This document shows, piece by piece, positions 4,306-10,706 of a DNA stretch of 48,225 bases. How positions within the stretch are numbered: position 1 is the first letter of the stretch; the number at the start of each line of letters is the position of its first letter. The notes beneath the pieces were generated by a model, which was not told where the DNA came from, made no database searches, and saw only the letters and a program-made list of their open reading frames with translations. Source of the stretch: a virus; the IMG/VR virus record IMGVR_UViG_3300027971_000072, positions 1 to 48,225 of that record; one strand, 5' to 3'. Both the position numbers and the translations under genes were made by a program.

Positions 4306-5091
4306 ATGAAACGCATCTTGGTGATGGGTTTACCCGGCGCGGGCAAGACATACCTAGCGCAACACATCCTCGACCACTTGCAAAACGAACGCAAGACGGT
4401 CATGTGGCTTAACGCCGATGATGTGCGTAAGAAGTACAACGACTGGGACTTTTCCCACGAGGGCCGTATTCGCCAAAGCCTGCGTATGCGTGAGTTGGCT
4501 GACAGCTACGATGTTGACTATGTGATTTGCGACTTTGTTGCCCCTCTAGTTGAGATGCGTAATAACTTCAAAGCTGACTGGACTATCTGGGTTGACACCA
4601 TCAATCAAGGTCGTTTTGAAGACACCAACAAGGTGTTTATTCCTCCGAAGGAATATGACTTCAGGATTACTGAGCAGAAGTCTGAGAAGTGGGGTGAGTT
4701 CATTGCCGCGCATATCTTGGATAACCGCCGCCGTCCTGTATTTGACTGGCAGAAAGAAACAGTTCAGATGCTTGGCAGATGGCAACCGTGGCACGCAGGA
4801 CACCGCAAGCTGTTTGAACGGGCACTGGCTAAGACTGGTCAAGTTGTGATCCAGATCAGAGACTGCCAAGGCTGGAACGGCTCTAACCCGTTTGCTGCTA
4901 ATCAGGTTAAAGAGTTTATTAGCCGTGATCTAGACCCACTGTATCAAGGTCAGTACGAAGTTCAACTGGTTCCTAACATTGTCAACATTACCTACGGGCG
5001 TGATGTTGGATACAAGATTGAGCAGGAATCTTTTGACGATGCTACCCACGCTATCTCGGCAACCAAGATACGCAAAGAGATGGGTGTGTGA
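4306..5091 (+). CDS. Adenylylsulfate kinase-like domain fused to HxGH nucleotidyltransferase domain
   Basis: 261 aa. Residues about 1-150 resemble APS kinase (CysC): a P-loop GLPGAGKT at about 8-15 and an NADDVRKKYNDWDFS segment matching the DGDxxR region. APS kinase makes PAPS, the sulfate donor of sulfotransferases. Residues about 158-261 form a nucleotidyltransferase domain: QMLGRWQPWHAGHRKLFERA with the HxGH nucleotide-binding motif, and ISATKIRKEM matching the ISSTxIR motif. The C-terminal part is much shorter than a full ATP sulfurylase and is more like NMN/cytidylyl/adenylyl transferases, so its substrate is open. The stop overlaps the start of the next gene (GTGTGA). Inferred role: PAPS supply for the sulfotransferase at the left end. 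Confidence 0.72.
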   Translation: MKRILVMGLPGAGKTYLAQHILDHLQNERKTVMWLNADDVRKKYNDWDFSHEGRIRQSLRMRELADSYDVDYVICDFVAPLVEMRNNFKADWTIWVDTINQGRFEDTNKVFIPPKEYDFRITEQKSEKWGEFIAAHILDNRRRPVFDWQKETVQMLGRWQPWHAGHRKLFERALAKTGQVVIQIRDCQGWNGSNPFAANQVKEFISRDLDPLYQGQYEVQLVPNIVNITYGRDVGYKIEQESFDDATHAISATKIRKEMGV

Positions 5092-5522
5092 TTGTCTTCA
5101 CCAACGGATGCTTTGATGTGCTTCATCGTGGGCATGTTGAGTATTTGGAGAAATCTAGAGCGTTGGGTGACAAGTTAGTTGTGGGTTTAAACTCAGATGC
5201 GTCTGTTCGGGAACTAAAGCCCGGCAGACCCATCAATTCCCAAGATGACCGAAAAGCTGTGCTGCTGGCGCTTCGCTGGGTAGATGAAGTCATTATCTTT
5301 GACGAACCCACACCGCTTGAGCTAATCCAACGGATTAGTCCTGACATCATTACGAAGGGCGCTGATTACAGCCCCGATCAAGTTGTCGGGTCAAGAATTG
5401 CCAAGCAAACAGTTATCATTCCTTTCTTAGATGGCTATTCATCAACAAGGATAATCAATGCAACTCAAGGGCATAGTAAACAAGGGCTGGGGGTCGGAGC
5501 TAATCTGGGCTACCAACGATAA
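5088..5522 (+). CDS. hldE (C-terminal domain): HldE C-terminal-type D-glycero-beta-D-manno-heptose-1-phosphate adenylyltransferase
   Basis: 144 aa from a GTG at 5088. It is a stand-alone version of the adenylyltransferase half of HldE/RfaE: FTNGCFDVLHRGHVEYLEKS (HxGH motif), VGLNSDASVRELKPGRPIN, WVDEVIIFDEPTPLELIQ, PDIITKGADY and GYSSTRII all match the family in order. The reaction is ATP + heptose-1-phosphate to ADP-heptose. The last ~20 residues after the family's usual end overlap the next gene in another frame by 65 nt, an unusually long overlap. In Enterobacteria this domain is fused behind the kinase; here it is separate and comes first. Related glycerol-3-phosphate cytidylyltransferases are the main alternative, but the heptose-type segments fit better. 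Confidence 0.85.
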   Translation: MIVFTNGCFDVLHRGHVEYLEKSRALGDKLVVGLNSDASVRELKPGRPINSQDDRKAVLLALRWVDEVIIFDEPTPLELIQRISPDIITKGADYSPDQVVGSRIAKQTVIIPFLDGYSSTRIINATQGHSKQGLGVGANLGYQR

Positions 5523-5820
5523 GTACTGCGGAAAGCTGATGACCTTTAAAAAGGATGCTAAGTTTTCCATGCACTTCCATGCAGAAAAAGATGAGACTTG
5601 GCTAGTCCAAGGTGGCTTATTTAAGGTCATCTGGATAGATACCAAAGACGCCAGCCGCCATGAGAAGATCCTTAACATTGGGGACACATGGCATAACCCA
5701 CCATTACTCCCTCACCAGCTAGTTTGCCTAGCAGCAGGTGTGATCTTAGAAGTCTCAACTGCTGATTCCGTAGAAGACAACTATCGAGTTGAGCCGGGGG
5801 ACAGTCAATGCGTATCTTAG
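5458..5820 (+). CDS. Single-domain cupin, probable sugar-phosphate isomerase or binding protein
   Basis: 120 aa small cupin. The metal-site residues are visible: H39, H41 and E46 in HFHAEKDETW, and H86 in PPLLPHQLV. This type is close to mannose-6-phosphate isomerase type II and related sugar cupins. The start at 5458 has an AAGGA-like site seven to nine bases upstream, and it lies 65 nt inside the adenylyltransferase gene. It sits between two genes of ADP-heptose synthesis, so it may act on a sugar phosphate or nucleotide sugar in the same route. Substrate and reaction cannot be read from the sequence. Confidence 0.75.
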   Translation: MQLKGIVNKGWGSELIWATNDKYCGKLMTFKKDAKFSMHFHAEKDETWLVQGGLFKVIWIDTKDASRHEKILNIGDTWHNPPLLPHQLVCLAAGVILEVSTADSVEDNYRVEPGDSQCVS

Positions 5821-6518
5821 TCATCGGTGATGGTTGCATCGACGAGTACCGCTATGGCGAGATACGCAGGGTAAATCCAGAATCTACTGCGCCATTGTTG
5901 AACTTTGAAGACAGTGAAGAGAAACTTGGCATGGCGTTTAACGTGGCTAAGAATCTTAGGTCTTTTGGTGCAGTGGTAGAACTTCTTGTTCCAACTGAAA
6001 TGTCCCGAAAAATTAGGTACATAGACCGTAGAACAGGAGAACATCTACTTAGAGTAGACCATGACGTACAAGCTCAGTCTTGTTTAGTCGGTAGTAAGTA
6101 CATGTTTGATGCCATAGTTATCTCTGACTATGATAAGGGTTTTGTAACCAATGAGGTCATCTGGAAACTGCGGCAGAAGTTTCAAGGGCCTATCTACATG
6201 GATACCAAGAAAAAGAACTTGGCTGATTTTCCCGGCATCTACATCAAGATTAACCAGCGGGAACTGTACGAATCTACATCTATCCCAGATCCAGAACATT
6301 TAATTGTTACTTACGGGGCTAAAGGATGCGGATATAAAGATTCACTCTATCCGGCTAAGGTGATAGAAGTTGTGGATGTTTGCGGGGCAGGCGATGTATT
6401 CCTAGCAGCTATGGTGTACAAGCACATACAGACTGGGGACATGAATATAGCCCTACCATTTGCCAACGAGAAGGCGGCAATATCTTGCCAGAGCATAGGG
6501 GCTGTATGCGTATCCTGA
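5808..6518 (+). CDS. hldE (N-terminal domain): HldE N-terminal-type (PfkB/ribokinase family) heptose-7-phosphate kinase, short form
   Basis: 236 aa. Family features in order: ILVIGDGCIDEYRYGEIRRVNPE at the N-terminus, GMAFNVAKNLRSFGA (the GGAxNVAxNL motif of RfaE kinases), DAIVISDYDKGF, YMDTKKKN, KINQRELYE, and the catalytic DVCGAGDVFLAA anion-hole motif near residue 190. The reaction is phosphorylation of heptose-7-phosphate at C1. At 236 residues it is shorter than the usual ~310-residue kinase domain; the middle region around RKIRYIDRRTGEHLLRVDHD is shortened. It overlaps both neighbours, showing tight co-translation. Activity despite the shortening is uncertain. Confidence 0.82.
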   Translation: MRILVIGDGCIDEYRYGEIRRVNPESTAPLLNFEDSEEKLGMAFNVAKNLRSFGAVVELLVPTEMSRKIRYIDRRTGEHLLRVDHDVQAQSCLVGSKYMFDAIVISDYDKGFVTNEVIWKLRQKFQGPIYMDTKKKNLADFPGIYIKINQRELYESTSIPDPEHLIVTYGAKGCGYKDSLYPAKVIEVVDVCGAGDVFLAAMVYKHIQTGDMNIALPFANEKAAISCQSIGAVCVS

Positions 6519-7261
6519 TTACTGGATATAAAGGTTTTATTGGCCAGAACATGGTCAAAGCCATGTCAGATCACGAGCTAGACTTGTGTGAATGGGGTGA
6601 TGAGTATTCCCTCTATGGAATAGATAGGGTTATTCACTTAGGCGCAATCTCAGATACACGCTGTAATGACTGGGCAGCTTTGCGTAAACAAAACGTGGGC
6701 TTTACCGTTACGCTTATGGAACGGTGTCAGGAGTATGGAATACCTATCCAACTAGCATCTTCAGCTTCAGTCTACGGGCCAGATAACATCACGTTTAAAG
6801 AGACTGATCCGGTAGCCCCTGCCAACATGTACGCAGAATCTAAAGCTTTGATTGAGCAGTATTTTCATAAGATGCAGCCTGTTTCGCCCGTGCAGATCTT
6901 TAGGTACTTTAATGTCTATGGCCCACACGAAGACCATAAAGGCGATCAGGCTTCTCCGTTTCACAAGTTTCGAGAGCAGGCAAAGACTGGGACAATTAAG
7001 ATATTTGAAGGTTCAGAAAACTTTAAACGTGACTTTATCCATGTGGACAAGGTAATTGATGTTCACAAGAAGTTTTTAAAAGTTAACGATTCTGGGATTT
7101 GGAACGTTGGGACGGGAGAAACAATGTCTTTTTTGGATGTTGCTCGCTTGGCAGCAGATGAATTTTCAGCGAAAATAGAAACAATTCCAATGCCTATATT
7201 GGGTGGTTATCAAATGTATACGTGTGCTGACATGACCAAATTGAATGGGATATTAAAGTGA
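6506..7261 (+). CDS. hldD: HldD-type ADP-L-glycero-D-manno-heptose 6-epimerase (SDR family)
   Basis: About 251 aa from the ATG at 6506 (MRILITGYKGFIGQN). This start is chosen because the Rossmann fold begins there; an upstream in-frame ATG at 6380 would add 42 meaningless residues read inside the kinase gene. NAD-binding GYKGFIG, catalytic YAESK (YxxxK) and the HldD-specific stretch YFNVYGPHEDHKG plus FEGSENFKRDFIHVDKV are all present, followed by GIWNVGTGETMSF. HldD converts ADP-D-glycero- to ADP-L-glycero-D-manno-heptose, the LPS inner-core donor. It closes the cassette APS kinase, adenylyltransferase, cupin, kinase, epimerase. GmhA and GmhB homologues are not in the window. Confidence 0.87.
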   Translation: MRILITGYKGFIGQNMVKAMSDHELDLCEWGDEYSLYGIDRVIHLGAISDTRCNDWAALRKQNVGFTVTLMERCQEYGIPIQLASSASVYGPDNITFKETDPVAPANMYAESKALIEQYFHKMQPVSPVQIFRYFNVYGPHEDHKGDQASPFHKFREQAKTGTIKIFEGSENFKRDFIHVDKVIDVHKKFLKVNDSGIWNVGTGETMSFLDVARLAADEFSAKIETIPMPILGGYQMYTCADMTKLNGILK

Positions 7262-7669: not shown

Positions 7670-8163
7670 TGTTTGACATCTTATCTGGTGGTTTACTAGG
7701 CTCTATTTTTGGCGGTGTGTTCCGTCTTGCGCCCGAGGTGCTGAAGTTCTTTGACAAAGCTAATGAGCGGAAACACGAACTGGCTATGTTTGAACAGCAA
7801 TGCCAATTAGAAACGCTACGTGGTCAGCAGAAGCTAGCCGAGATTGGTGCACAGCGCGAAGCCGCTATTGACGTAGGTGTCATGGACGCGTTTAACAACG
7901 CCATAGTATCTCAAGCTGAGATGGCCAAAGCCGCTGGTGGTTGGGCCGCTAGTCTGTCTGCTTCTGTGCGTCCAGTCGTAACTTACTGGGTGCTTTTTGT
8001 CTGGTCATTCATCCACGTATGGTTTGCTTACAACGCATGGTTAGCTGGTGCACCTGCTATAGAAGTGTTCAAGACAATGATGACTCCAGACTTCTCAGCT
8101 TTGCTTGCAGGCACAATAAATTTCTGGTTTTTGGATCGTACTTTAGCTAAACGTGGGCTATGA
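7669..8163 (+). CDS. Three-helix holin, GTA-holin_3TM type
   Basis: 164 aa. The N-terminus has a glycine-rich hydrophobic patch (LSGGLLGSIFGGVFRLAP), then an amphipathic helical region (NERKHELAMFEQQCQLETL), and a C-terminal region with membrane segments (VRPVVTYWVLFVWSFIHVWF, then MTPDFSALLAGTINFWFLD). The SxRPxxTYW motif before the membrane helices is typical of the three-helix holin family also seen in gene transfer agents. It would release the endolysin by permeabilising the inner membrane. The gene overlaps the endolysin gene by four bases, as expected for a lysis operon. Confidence 0.75.
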   Translation: MFDILSGGLLGSIFGGVFRLAPEVLKFFDKANERKHELAMFEQQCQLETLRGQQKLAEIGAQREAAIDVGVMDAFNNAIVSQAEMAKAAGGWAASLSASVRPVVTYWVLFVWSFIHVWFAYNAWLAGAPAIEVFKTMMTPDFSALLAGTINFWFLDRTLAKRGL

Positions 8164-8603
8164 ACCTAGAGTTAGCCGCCAGTCTATGCCGTCAGTTTGA
8201 GGGCTACCGCGCCAAGCCGTATTTATGTCCGGCTGGCGTGGCTACGATTGGCTATGGCTCTACCTATTACGCAGACAAGCGCAAGGTAACTTTAGAAGAC
8301 CCGCCGATGGATGAACCCACGGCTAGGGCGCTTTTGATGATTGAGTTAGAACATACGTACCTACCGGGTGTTCTGCGTAACTGTCCGGGTCTAATTACGG
8401 ATGTGCGTAAGTGCAACGCCATAGTTGACTTTTGTTATAACCTTGGTGTAGGACGCTTGCAAACATCTACGTTAAAGAGGAAAATCAACGCCAATGATTG
8501 GGAAGGAGCCAAGGAACAATTGATGCTCTGGACTAAAGGTGGCGGTAAGGTACTGCCGGGACTACTTAAACGCCGCACGGCTGAGTGCGCTCTACTGGAT
8601 TGA
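8160..8603 (+). CDS. GH24 phage lysozyme (endolysin) with Glu-Cys-Thr triad
   Basis: 147 aa, the usual length of T4-lysozyme-like endolysins. The catalytic region reads QFEGYRAKPYLCPAGVATIG. The spacing is E14 - 8 residues - C23 - 5 residues - T29, which is the E-8-C/D-5-T pattern of this family with Cys in place of the more common Asp. DFCYNLGVGRLQTSTLKRKIN and LPGLLKRRTAECALL match the C-terminal lobe. No signal or SAR segment is visible at the N-terminus, so release probably depends on the holin upstream. The substrate is peptidoglycan, which fits a Gram-negative host. Confidence 0.9.
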   Translation: MNLELAASLCRQFEGYRAKPYLCPAGVATIGYGSTYYADKRKVTLEDPPMDEPTARALLMIELEHTYLPGVLRNCPGLITDVRKCNAIVDFCYNLGVGRLQTSTLKRKINANDWEGAKEQLMLWTKGGGKVLPGLLKRRTAECALLD

Positions 8604-8606
8604 CCG

Positions 8607-10706
8607 ATGCCATTACAAAAAGTTCTGTTCAAGCCGGGTGTAAATAGGGAAAACACTAGGTACACCAATGAGGGCGGTTGGTTTGAGTCCGACAAGGTGC
8701 GGTTTCGCCAAGGCACGCCTGAGAAGATTGGCGGCTGGGCGCGTATCTCTGTGTCTAGCTTTTTGGGAACTTGCCGTTCGCTTTGGAATTGGATTACGCT
8801 TGCTAATCTTAACCTGCTTAGTGTTGGCACAAACCTTAAGTTCTATATTGAAAACGGCGGTCTGTACAACGACATCACGCCTATCCGAACAGCGGACATT
8901 CTAAGCAACCCTTTTAAAACAACTAACCTCAGTACAACCGTGACGGTAACGGATACAGCCCACGGCGCAATAGATGGCGATTTTGTTGCGTTTAGTAATG
9001 CGGCTACTGTGGGTGGGTTAGACCTAAACAACCAATACCAGCTTACTTACGTAGACGCCAACACATACACAATAACTGCAAGCTCTGCGGCCACTTCTAC
9101 AGTAGCGGCTGGGGGCGGTACAACTGTTAGTGCGGTGTATCAGATCAACGTTGGCTTGCCGGTTGAGGTTCCGCTAACTGGCTGGGGCGCTGGCGCTTGG
9201 GGTAATGGTACGTGGGGTAATGGCGGCACATCTACGTCAGCGCTGCGCCTGTGGAGTCAAAGCAATTTTGGTGAAGATTTGGTTTTTGGGTTCCGTGGTA
9301 GTCCAATTTACTATTGGGATGCGGCTTACGGTTTAACACCCTCTATAGTTACTATAACTATTGCGTCTCCTGCGGTAGTGACGTCTAGCCTCACCTTGGT
9401 AAACGGCGCAACTGTTATTTTGACAAACTCCGGCTACCCATCTGCGTTGCCGACTGGCTTAGTTGTGGGAACTACGTACTACGTTAAAAATGTTTCAGGC
9501 AATACGTTTAATTTGGCCGCCACCCCTACAGGCGTAGTTATTAATACAACAGGAACGCAGTCTGGTACGCACTACATCATGCCTAATGCTGTCCCTGTTA
9601 CGTCTTTAGCTGGGGCAAGTAGCGTGCCTTTGATGCAAAACTTCTTGTACGTAGCCGATATAAGCCGTTTTGTGTTTGCGTTTGGCTGCAATGACTACGG
9701 TTCAACCACTCAGAACCCAATGCTTATCCGTTGGTCAGATCAAGAATCTGTGGTTGATTGGGCACCGTCCGCTACTAATCAGGCAGGTAGTGTAACCATA
9801 TCTCACGGCTCAGAAATTGTTACCGCTATCCAGACCCGTCAAGAGATTGTCGTATTTACTGACTCTGCGCTTTATTCTTTGCAATACCTAGGCCCTCCGT
9901 TTGTGTGGGGCACGCAGTTGCTTGGTGACAACATCTCCATCATTGGCCAAAACGCTATTACCCAAGGCTCTGGCATAGTCTATTGGATGGGTACGGACAA
10001 GTTCTACACGTATGACGGTCGTGTGCAAACACTAAACTGCGACCTACGCAAGTACGTCTATCAAGACATTAACTTGAGCCAAAACCAACAAGTTTTTGCA
10101 GGAACTAACGAGGGTTTTAACGAAATCTGGTGGTTCTATTGCTCTGCTAACAGCACAAACATTGACCGGTACGTTATATTTAACTACGCGGAAAACACTT
10201 GGTACTACGGCACGATGGCACGAACCGCATGGCTGGACTCTGGTCTAAGGGATTACCCTATTGCTGCAAACCCCTTAACTGCCACGACGGGCAACGTTGT
10301 TAACCAAGAGTACGGCAACGATAACAATGAGACCGGCACCCCTGCTGCAATTAATGCGTACATCTCTTCGTCCGAGTTTGATATTGGTGATGGCCATAAC
10401 TTTGGTTTTATCTGGCGCATGTTGCCGGACTTGACTTTTTCTGGCTCGGATGCTGCCCCTACCCCTGCTGTTACTTACACGTTGTACCCGATGGTAAACT
10501 CAGGCTCAGGTACAGGGACGGCTGTGGCGGCGGGTGTAAATAAACTAACAGGCGCTTCATACACAATTACTGAAGGTTTTACGGGGCAAGTGTTTACCCG
10601 TGTGCGTGGGCGTCAGATGATCTTAAAAGTGGGCTCTAATCAGCTTGGTACGCAGTGGCAGTTGGGTGCTACCCGTATTGACATTAGACCGGACGGCAGA
10701 CGATGA
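8607..10706 (+). CDS. Large phage structural protein, 699 aa, possibly head-tail or tail-hub
   Basis: The N-terminus MPLQKVLFKPGVNRENTRYT, with DKVRFRQGTPEKIGGW, is a pattern seen in structural proteins of environmental podoviruses. Residues about 100-330 contain short beta repeats with Val/Thr-rich stretches. The C-terminal half has VIFNYAENTWYYGTMART and DIGDGHNFGFIWRMLPDL. There is no membrane segment and no enzyme motif. It resembles, in general build, the beta-rich packaged-DNA-stabilising or tail proteins of P22-like phages, but that is a structural guess. It lies between lysis genes and ejection proteins and overlaps the next gene by four bases. Confidence 0.6.
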   Translation: MPLQKVLFKPGVNRENTRYTNEGGWFESDKVRFRQGTPEKIGGWARISVSSFLGTCRSLWNWITLANLNLLSVGTNLKFYIENGGLYNDITPIRTADILSNPFKTTNLSTTVTVTDTAHGAIDGDFVAFSNAATVGGLDLNNQYQLTYVDANTYTITASSAATSTVAAGGGTTVSAVYQINVGLPVEVPLTGWGAGAWGNGTWGNGGTSTSALRLWSQSNFGEDLVFGFRGSPIYYWDAAYGLTPSIVTITIASPAVVTSSLTLVNGATVILTNSGYPSALPTGLVVGTTYYVKNVSGNTFNLAATPTGVVINTTGTQSGTHYIMPNAVPVTSLAGASSVPLMQNFLYVADISRFVFAFGCNDYGSTTQNPMLIRWSDQESVVDWAPSATNQAGSVTISHGSEIVTAIQTRQEIVVFTDSALYSLQYLGPPFVWGTQLLGDNISIIGQNAITQGSGIVYWMGTDKFYTYDGRVQTLNCDLRKYVYQDINLSQNQQVFAGTNEGFNEIWWFYCSANSTNIDRYVIFNYAENTWYYGTMARTAWLDSGLRDYPIAANPLTATTGNVVNQEYGNDNNETGTPAAINAYISSSEFDIGDGHNFGFIWRMLPDLTFSGSDAAPTPAVTYTLYPMVNSGSGTGTAVAAGVNKLTGASYTITEGFTGQVFTRVRGRQMILKVGSNQLGTQWQLGATRIDIRPDGRR

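Follow-up and report, generated by a model that had tools for sequence, protein, structure and literature searches.

A cupin as probable substitute for GmhA in an ADP-heptose gene module of phages and DPANN archaea

The viral record IMGVR_UViG_3300027971_000072, analyzed over its full 48,225 nucleotides (hereafter the window), is a linear fragment from a freshwater phage and is probably incomplete. At positions 5088-7261, it carries a module of four genes, an accessory block between a P-loop gene and the lysis genes. Judged by sequence, the encoded HldE-type transferase, cupin, HldE-type kinase and HldD-type epimerase would together make ADP-heptose, which serves as a sugar donor for the bacterial surface, with the cupin probably replacing the isomerase GmhA. 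We assign this reading, module and route taken jointly, a probability of roughly two in three. With nearly the same confidence, we propose that phrog_7851-type cupins are a second, non-homologous phosphoheptose isomerase in phages and DPANN archaea, and that, with a mini-HAD phosphatase as GmhB substitute, they would complete a compact five-gene pathway from sedoheptulose-7-phosphate that is usable in hosts without GmhA. The gene set itself has already been described; new are the proposal of a specific enzymatic role for the cupin and the corrected annotation of the mini-HAD.

Genes of the module

A preliminary description of the window had proposed a phage-borne cassette of five overlapping genes, with HldE split into a transferase and a kinase in this order, a cupin gene between them, and an HldD epimerase. 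Phage origin, split, gene order and identities were all borne out, and all five plus-strand open reading frames exist and overlap (Table 1). The first of them was found not to belong to the module, because it also occurs in relatives without hld genes.

For the transferase, kinase and epimerase, the best profile matches were to heptose pathway families and not to other enzymes, and active-site motifs were not lost. The transferase matched TIGR02199 best (162.8 bits, E 4.3e-48), as well as phrog_7878 (E 9e-35) and, among PDB profiles, 5x9q (E 8e-33); its H-x-G-H motif is present as CFDVLHRGH. The best match for the kinase was TIGR02198 (104.5 bits, E 5.7e-30; phrog_8133, E 1e-73); its 236 residues compare with 315 positions of the model, leaving it about 80 residues shorter. 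The epimerase matched TIGR02197 (196 bits, E 7.5e-58) and, in the PDB, the HldD structure 1eq2 (E 2e-42). It is without part of the N-terminal cofactor-binding region.

Catalytic motifs were conserved over 16 to 47 homologues. All four genes were present in 18 of 18 well-flanked relatives.

The cupin and GmhA

The cupin belongs to phrog_7851 (E 4e-39), and its named matches (Cupin_2, MannoseP_isomer, Lyx_isomer) are weak. The expected cupin metal ligands H39, H41, E46 and H86 were invariant in 28 homologues. The weak matches include mannose-6-phosphate, D-lyxose and L-ribose isomerases, which would fit a role as isomerase, because aldose-ketose isomerization is GmhA-type chemistry. Current cyanophage annotations of the family read "cysteine dioxygenase", "putative nucleotidyltransferase" or just cupin; the assignment, if true, names the enzyme for a family that lacks an apt annotation there. 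We found no precedent for a cupin phosphoheptose isomerase in the open-access literature searched, which is not proof of absence.

Cupin and kinase genes are almost always linked in phages. Within the lineage, all 18 well-flanked loci showed this linkage, as did 37 of 41 other viral loci (examined with 4-kb flanks) and, among records of phage isolates or single cells, 6 of 7. As the preliminary description had noted, neither an SIS-type GmhA nor a GmhB is recognizable in the window. Among related phages, the search that it had suggested gave a divided answer: a GmhB-like or mini-HAD phosphatase is linked in many relatives, but GmhA (TIGR00441, SIS fold) was detected in none of 45 phage records with the module, complete cyanophages included. 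A home-made GmhA hidden Markov model likewise found no GmhA in 71 kinase-bearing phage loci.

For cellular evidence, we restricted the analysis to DPANN-type operons. Ten loci from DPANN or Patescibacteria metagenome-assembled genomes (MAGs) have cupin-HldD-kinase-GmhB-transferase operons without GmhA, with GmhB recognized in nine. In a syntenic swap, two loci have the order cupin-HldD-kinase-GmhB/transferase (L252, L253) and another has GmhA-HldD-kinase-GmhB/transferase (L254), the first gene being the sole difference. The same exchange is seen in gene fusions, with kinase-cupin in L247, L248 and L249 versus kinase-GmhA in L250 and L251. In L224, the cupin is fused to HldD.

Cupin and GmhA also tend to exclude each other in genomes. 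Among 148 archaeal genomes of one phylum, 28 encoded an HldE kinase (called at 280 bits or more), together with GmhA only in 17 cases, the cupin only in 7, both in 1 and neither in 3 (Fisher p 7e-4, from counts uncorrected for relatedness or MAG incompleteness). Considering only kinase-linked genes in the same genomes, the cupin was found in 7, GmhA in 16 and both in 0. In the genome collection, 23 loci combined the cupin with two or more other module genes, and only one of them (L222) had a GmhA-like gene as well. Given the operon swaps, the fusion swaps and this tendency to mutual exclusion, it is simplest to suppose that the cupin stands in for GmhA.

A mini-HAD annotated as phosphoheptose isomerase

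The phosphatase step requires a correction of existing annotation. In cyanophages, the proteins of T4-GC 306 (phrog_1238) are labeled "phosphoheptose isomerase" (for example, L028 9719-10063). However, the HAD motifs DIDGT, TAR, KP and IDDK are conserved in phrog_1238, which matches the EcbF/BcbF capsule phosphatase family TIGR01689 (E 1e-8) and PDB entry 9iqw (E 2e-20), and TIGR00441 had no match in these genomes. We therefore rejected phrog_1238 as GmhA; by its motifs and matches, it is a mini-HAD phosphatase.

This protein most likely performs the GmhB step, because mini-HAD and GmhB-like phosphatase alternate among viral loci. Outside the lineage, 11 viral loci had the mini-HAD and 12 the canonical GmhB-like phosphatase, with both in only one. 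Within the lineage, the mini-HAD (TIGR01689) is found in L017, L018 and L024, as it is in the cyanophages, and is absent from the window. Since it varies in this way, we did not take it as defining the module. T4-GC 306 is also outside the seven co-occurring clusters of PMC3037559. The literature lists gmhA among viral metabolic genes (e.g., PMC9238414), and some of these listings may reflect the misannotation of phrog_1238. The new assignment would thus correct the isomerase label on a gene that has been counted as a viral metabolic gene.

Proposed route and its alternatives

From gene identities, linkage, selection and the archaeal swaps, we infer the reaction of the cupin and the use of the product as follows. 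Sedoheptulose-7-phosphate from the pentose-phosphate pathway of the host would be converted by the cupin, instead of the SIS-fold GmhA, to D-glycero-D-manno-heptose-7-phosphate, which the compact HldE kinase would phosphorylate to heptose-1,7-bisphosphate. A phosphatase, in many relatives the linked mini-HAD or GmhB, would release heptose-1-phosphate. The HldE transferase would then form ADP-D,D-heptose, and HldD would epimerize it to ADP-L,D-heptose, which the phage would then use to glycosylate a virion protein or the host surface. The five steps match five genes, of which the window has four; since no phosphatase was recognized there, this step is probably carried out by the host, or else by the product of an unrecognized gene. 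If the cupin is the isomerase, the phage probably starts from sedoheptulose-7-phosphate. The preliminary description had concluded from the missing GmhA that heptose-7-phosphate is drawn from the host, and the cupin now offers the better explanation.

Several points weigh against this route. Profile searches recognized no GmhB-type or mini-HAD phosphatase in the window. The transferase, kinase and epimerase all fall short of the NCBI curated equivalog cut-offs (162.8 versus 181.5, 104.5 versus 345 and 196 versus 274.6 bits, respectively); the kinase and epimerase are short, and the transferase is somewhat divergent. Non-isomerase cupins such as oxalate decarboxylase score as well as the isomerases or better, and lead the PDB matches. 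The archaeal cupins share a family with the window cupin but branch far from it, so that their function can be carried over to the phage only tentatively. The archaeal genome counts, moreover, are uncorrected for relatedness and MAG incompleteness. Some cupin-bearing genomes carry GmhA elsewhere, and in L222, an Acidimicrobiaceae MAG, a GmhA-like gene is located about 1 kb downstream of cupin-kinase-transferase.

The L222 region (7872-10515) continues after cupin, kinase and transferase with the GmhA-like gene and a HAD/nucleotidyltransferase fusion, and perhaps represents two adjoining nucleotide-sugar sets.

RmlC-kind cupins act on nucleotide sugars. The window cupin could similarly tailor the nucleotide sugar, perhaps as a 3,5-epimerase, with heptose-7-phosphate salvaged from a host that has GmhA. 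The lack of a detectable SIS-type GmhA in the phages and the presence of both genes in L222 would fit this explanation, and yet we consider it rather unlikely, as it does not account for the interchange of cupin and GmhA, both between archaeal operons that are identical in all other respects and between the fusion partners of one and the same kinase. Moreover, GmhA was not found at E <= 1e-10 in 92 of the 121 Prochlorococcus family genomes sampled, even though the module is present in phages of that group, which favors a self-contained pathway in cyanophages. For the window phage, host GmhA could still play a part. If the cupin is the isomerase, GmhA would be dispensable for heptose synthesis in phages and DPANN archaea, and this would change the view of where phages carrying the module obtain their sugar.

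The end product might also be an ADP- or otherwise NDP-activated sugar other than glycero-manno-heptose, with transferase, kinase and epimerase having drifted and the cupin isomerizing a related ketose phosphate. The scores under the equivalog cut-offs, the shortened kinase and epimerase, and the extra genes of some cyanophage clusters (transketolase-like, alcohol dehydrogenase, carbamoyltransferase) point in this direction. We regard it as improbable, because three heptose pathway families are linked to each other and, in many relatives, to a GmhB-type or mini-HAD phosphatase. The predicted structure of the kinase (pLDDT 94.3) is closest to HldA (4e8y/4e84, E 8e-20), well ahead of other sugar kinases in the structure comparison. 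Heptose-kinase motifs are retained as well (RxxPExxxP, SDYxKG, NxxE and GAGD in the window protein), and across 47 homologues the PE, GMxxNV, SDYxKG, NxxE and GxGD positions do not vary; the epimerase keeps YxxxK and the HldD HKG motif in the alignment.

Finally, the module might be non-functional "stuffer DNA" for packaging, as has been raised for cyanophage lipopolysaccharide (LPS) genes (PMC3037559), and it is indeed absent from many of the lineage relatives judged (31 hld-negative versus 19 hld-positive loci in a scan with the upstream glycosyltransferase, near-identical contigs being kept in the counts), but this very improbable reading is disfavored by purifying selection on all four genes (ratio of nonsynonymous to synonymous substitution rates, dN/dS, about 0.04-0.15 where dS was unsaturated), by the invariant active-site residues, and by unrelated phages keeping the same gene set despite shuffled order.

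Neighboring genes

The genes upstream of the module (Table 1) are shared between relatives with and without it. The glycosyltransferase, the RCC1-repeat proteins and the P-loop gene (or its kinase-only form) are common to both groups, and the P-loop/NMNAT gene or the kinase-only form was present in 31 relatives without any detected hld gene. The P-loop/NMNAT gene and the upstream glycosyltransferase are thus core genes of the lineage and were rejected as module members.

The preliminary description had suggested that the neighboring GT9-like protein uses the ADP-heptose. This suggestion did not hold up, because the glycosyltransferase is a core gene of hld-negative relatives too and is thus not the dedicated partner of the module. 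Its identity as GT9 is also unproven: the best NCBIfam match had an E-value of 0.066, PDB profiles gave no match, and GT-B-like fold matches to LpxB, WaaC and TibC (E 6e-4 to 2e-2) were obtained on a poor model (pLDDT 54). The homologue in relative L009 has 589 amino acids. In the window, this multidomain protein is flanked by RCC1-repeat tail proteins, and relatives of the glycosyltransferase part occur in more than 200 viral loci.

The P-loop and NMNAT-like parts are fused, separate or reduced to the kinase within the lineage (window 4306-5091; L098 7108-7892; L011 6847-7290). Relatives are found in Stenotrophomonas and Xanthomonas phages, and in one Stenotrophomonas phage a distant relative adjoins a NADAR gene. 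The protein might have a link to nicotinamide adenine dinucleotide or to the supply of phosphoadenosine phosphosulfate (PAPS) for the sulfotransferase domain. In some relatives, a methyltransferase-like gene directly precedes the P-loop gene (L018 5415-5981, L015 3566-4153, L022 6260-6841).

Table 1. Genes of the candidate ADP-heptose module and their upstream neighbors in the window
Feature	Position	Strand	Basis
HldE C-terminal-type D-glycero-beta-D-manno-heptose-1-phosphate adenylyltransferase, stand-alone	5088..5522	+	TIGR02199, phrog_7878, 5x9q, H-x-G-H motif
Cupin, proposed sedoheptulose-7-phosphate isomerase in place of GmhA	5458..5820	+	phrog_7851, weak cupin profiles, genomic context
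Compact HldE N-terminal-type heptose-7-phosphate kinase, 236 aa	5808..6518	+	TIGR02198, phrog_8133, fold match HldA
HldD-type ADP-glyceromanno-heptose 6-epimerase, shortened N-terminal cofactor region, 251 aa	6506..7261	+	TIGR02197, 1eq2
Neighbor outside module: APS-kinase-like P-loop fused to NMNAT-like nucleotidyltransferase	4306..5091	+	phrog_10255 E 2e-50, APS_kinase E 2e-9, archaeal NMNAT E 1e-6
Neighbor, core gene: sulfotransferase, TPR and GT-B-like glycosyltransferase in one protein, truncated 5' at the contig start	2..1567	+	PF13469 E 1e-10
Neighbor: RCC1-repeat protein, phage tail-type	1564..2691	+	WD40_RLD E 5e-61; phrog_4219, phrog_20500 tail
Neighbor: second RCC1-repeat protein, phage tail-type	2694..3863	+	WD40_RLD E 7e-69; phrog_7220, phrog_20500, phrog_11922 tail

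Comparison with known systems

A profile-guided scan of viral contigs confirmed the kinase in 564 of the first 600 candidates, so that it is frequent among them, and the module genes occur there in shuffled order. Some phage-like contigs appear to have been binned into cellular genomes (L192/L193 and L204/L266, Neomarinimicrobiota and Prochlorococcus), and we rejected them as cellular loci. In L202, a phage-like heptose cassette lies within a Bifidobacterium breve MAG contig.

The module itself is known from Prochlorococcus and Synechococcus phages. T4-GC 304, 305, 307 and 308 co-occur in P-SSM2, S-SM2 and S-SSM7 (Sullivan et al., 2010, PMC3037559), and our analysis identifies them as transferase, kinase, cupin and epimerase, respectively. 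The window likewise has these four genes linked, with the HldE transferase standing alone, a short HldE kinase, a cupin of phrog_7851 and HldD. Compared with the cyanophage cluster T4-GC 304-308 (P-SSM2, S-SSM7, S-SM2, S-CAM1), protein identity is about 35-50%, and the transferase is upstream of the kinase in several cyanophages as well. The window differs in its origin from a freshwater phage of smaller size, with a terminase closest to the pelagiphage HTVC027P/HTVC023P group, in having HldD on the same strand, and in having neither the mini-HAD (T4-GC 306) nor a carbamoyltransferase neighbor. For the LPS genes of P-SSM2, surface remodeling against rival phages has been proposed (reviewed in PMC2984593). 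The RCC1-repeat tail-type neighbors in the window and the tail-fiber genes next to cyanophage clusters suggest decoration of the virion, and are compatible with modification of the host surface.

With the canonical GmhA-HldE-GmhB-HldD pathway of Gram-negative bacteria, the window shares the kinase, adenylyltransferase and epimerase steps. It differs in having a cupin for the SIS-type GmhA, a split HldE with the transferase first, a kinase reduced in length and no recognized phosphatase. The DPANN operons (L219, L224, L225, L252, L253; also L216) likewise link a cupin of the same family to HldD, kinase and transferase without GmhA; they are cellular, and have a full-length kinase and a canonical GmhB that often forms a fusion with the transferase. 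With the known cupin sugar isomerases (type II phosphomannose isomerase, D-lyxose and L-ribose isomerases), the window cupin shares the fold and the metal-ligand pattern, but its family is separate from them, with WGxE, YCGK, EfST and DsyR motifs of its own and a proposed seven-carbon substrate.

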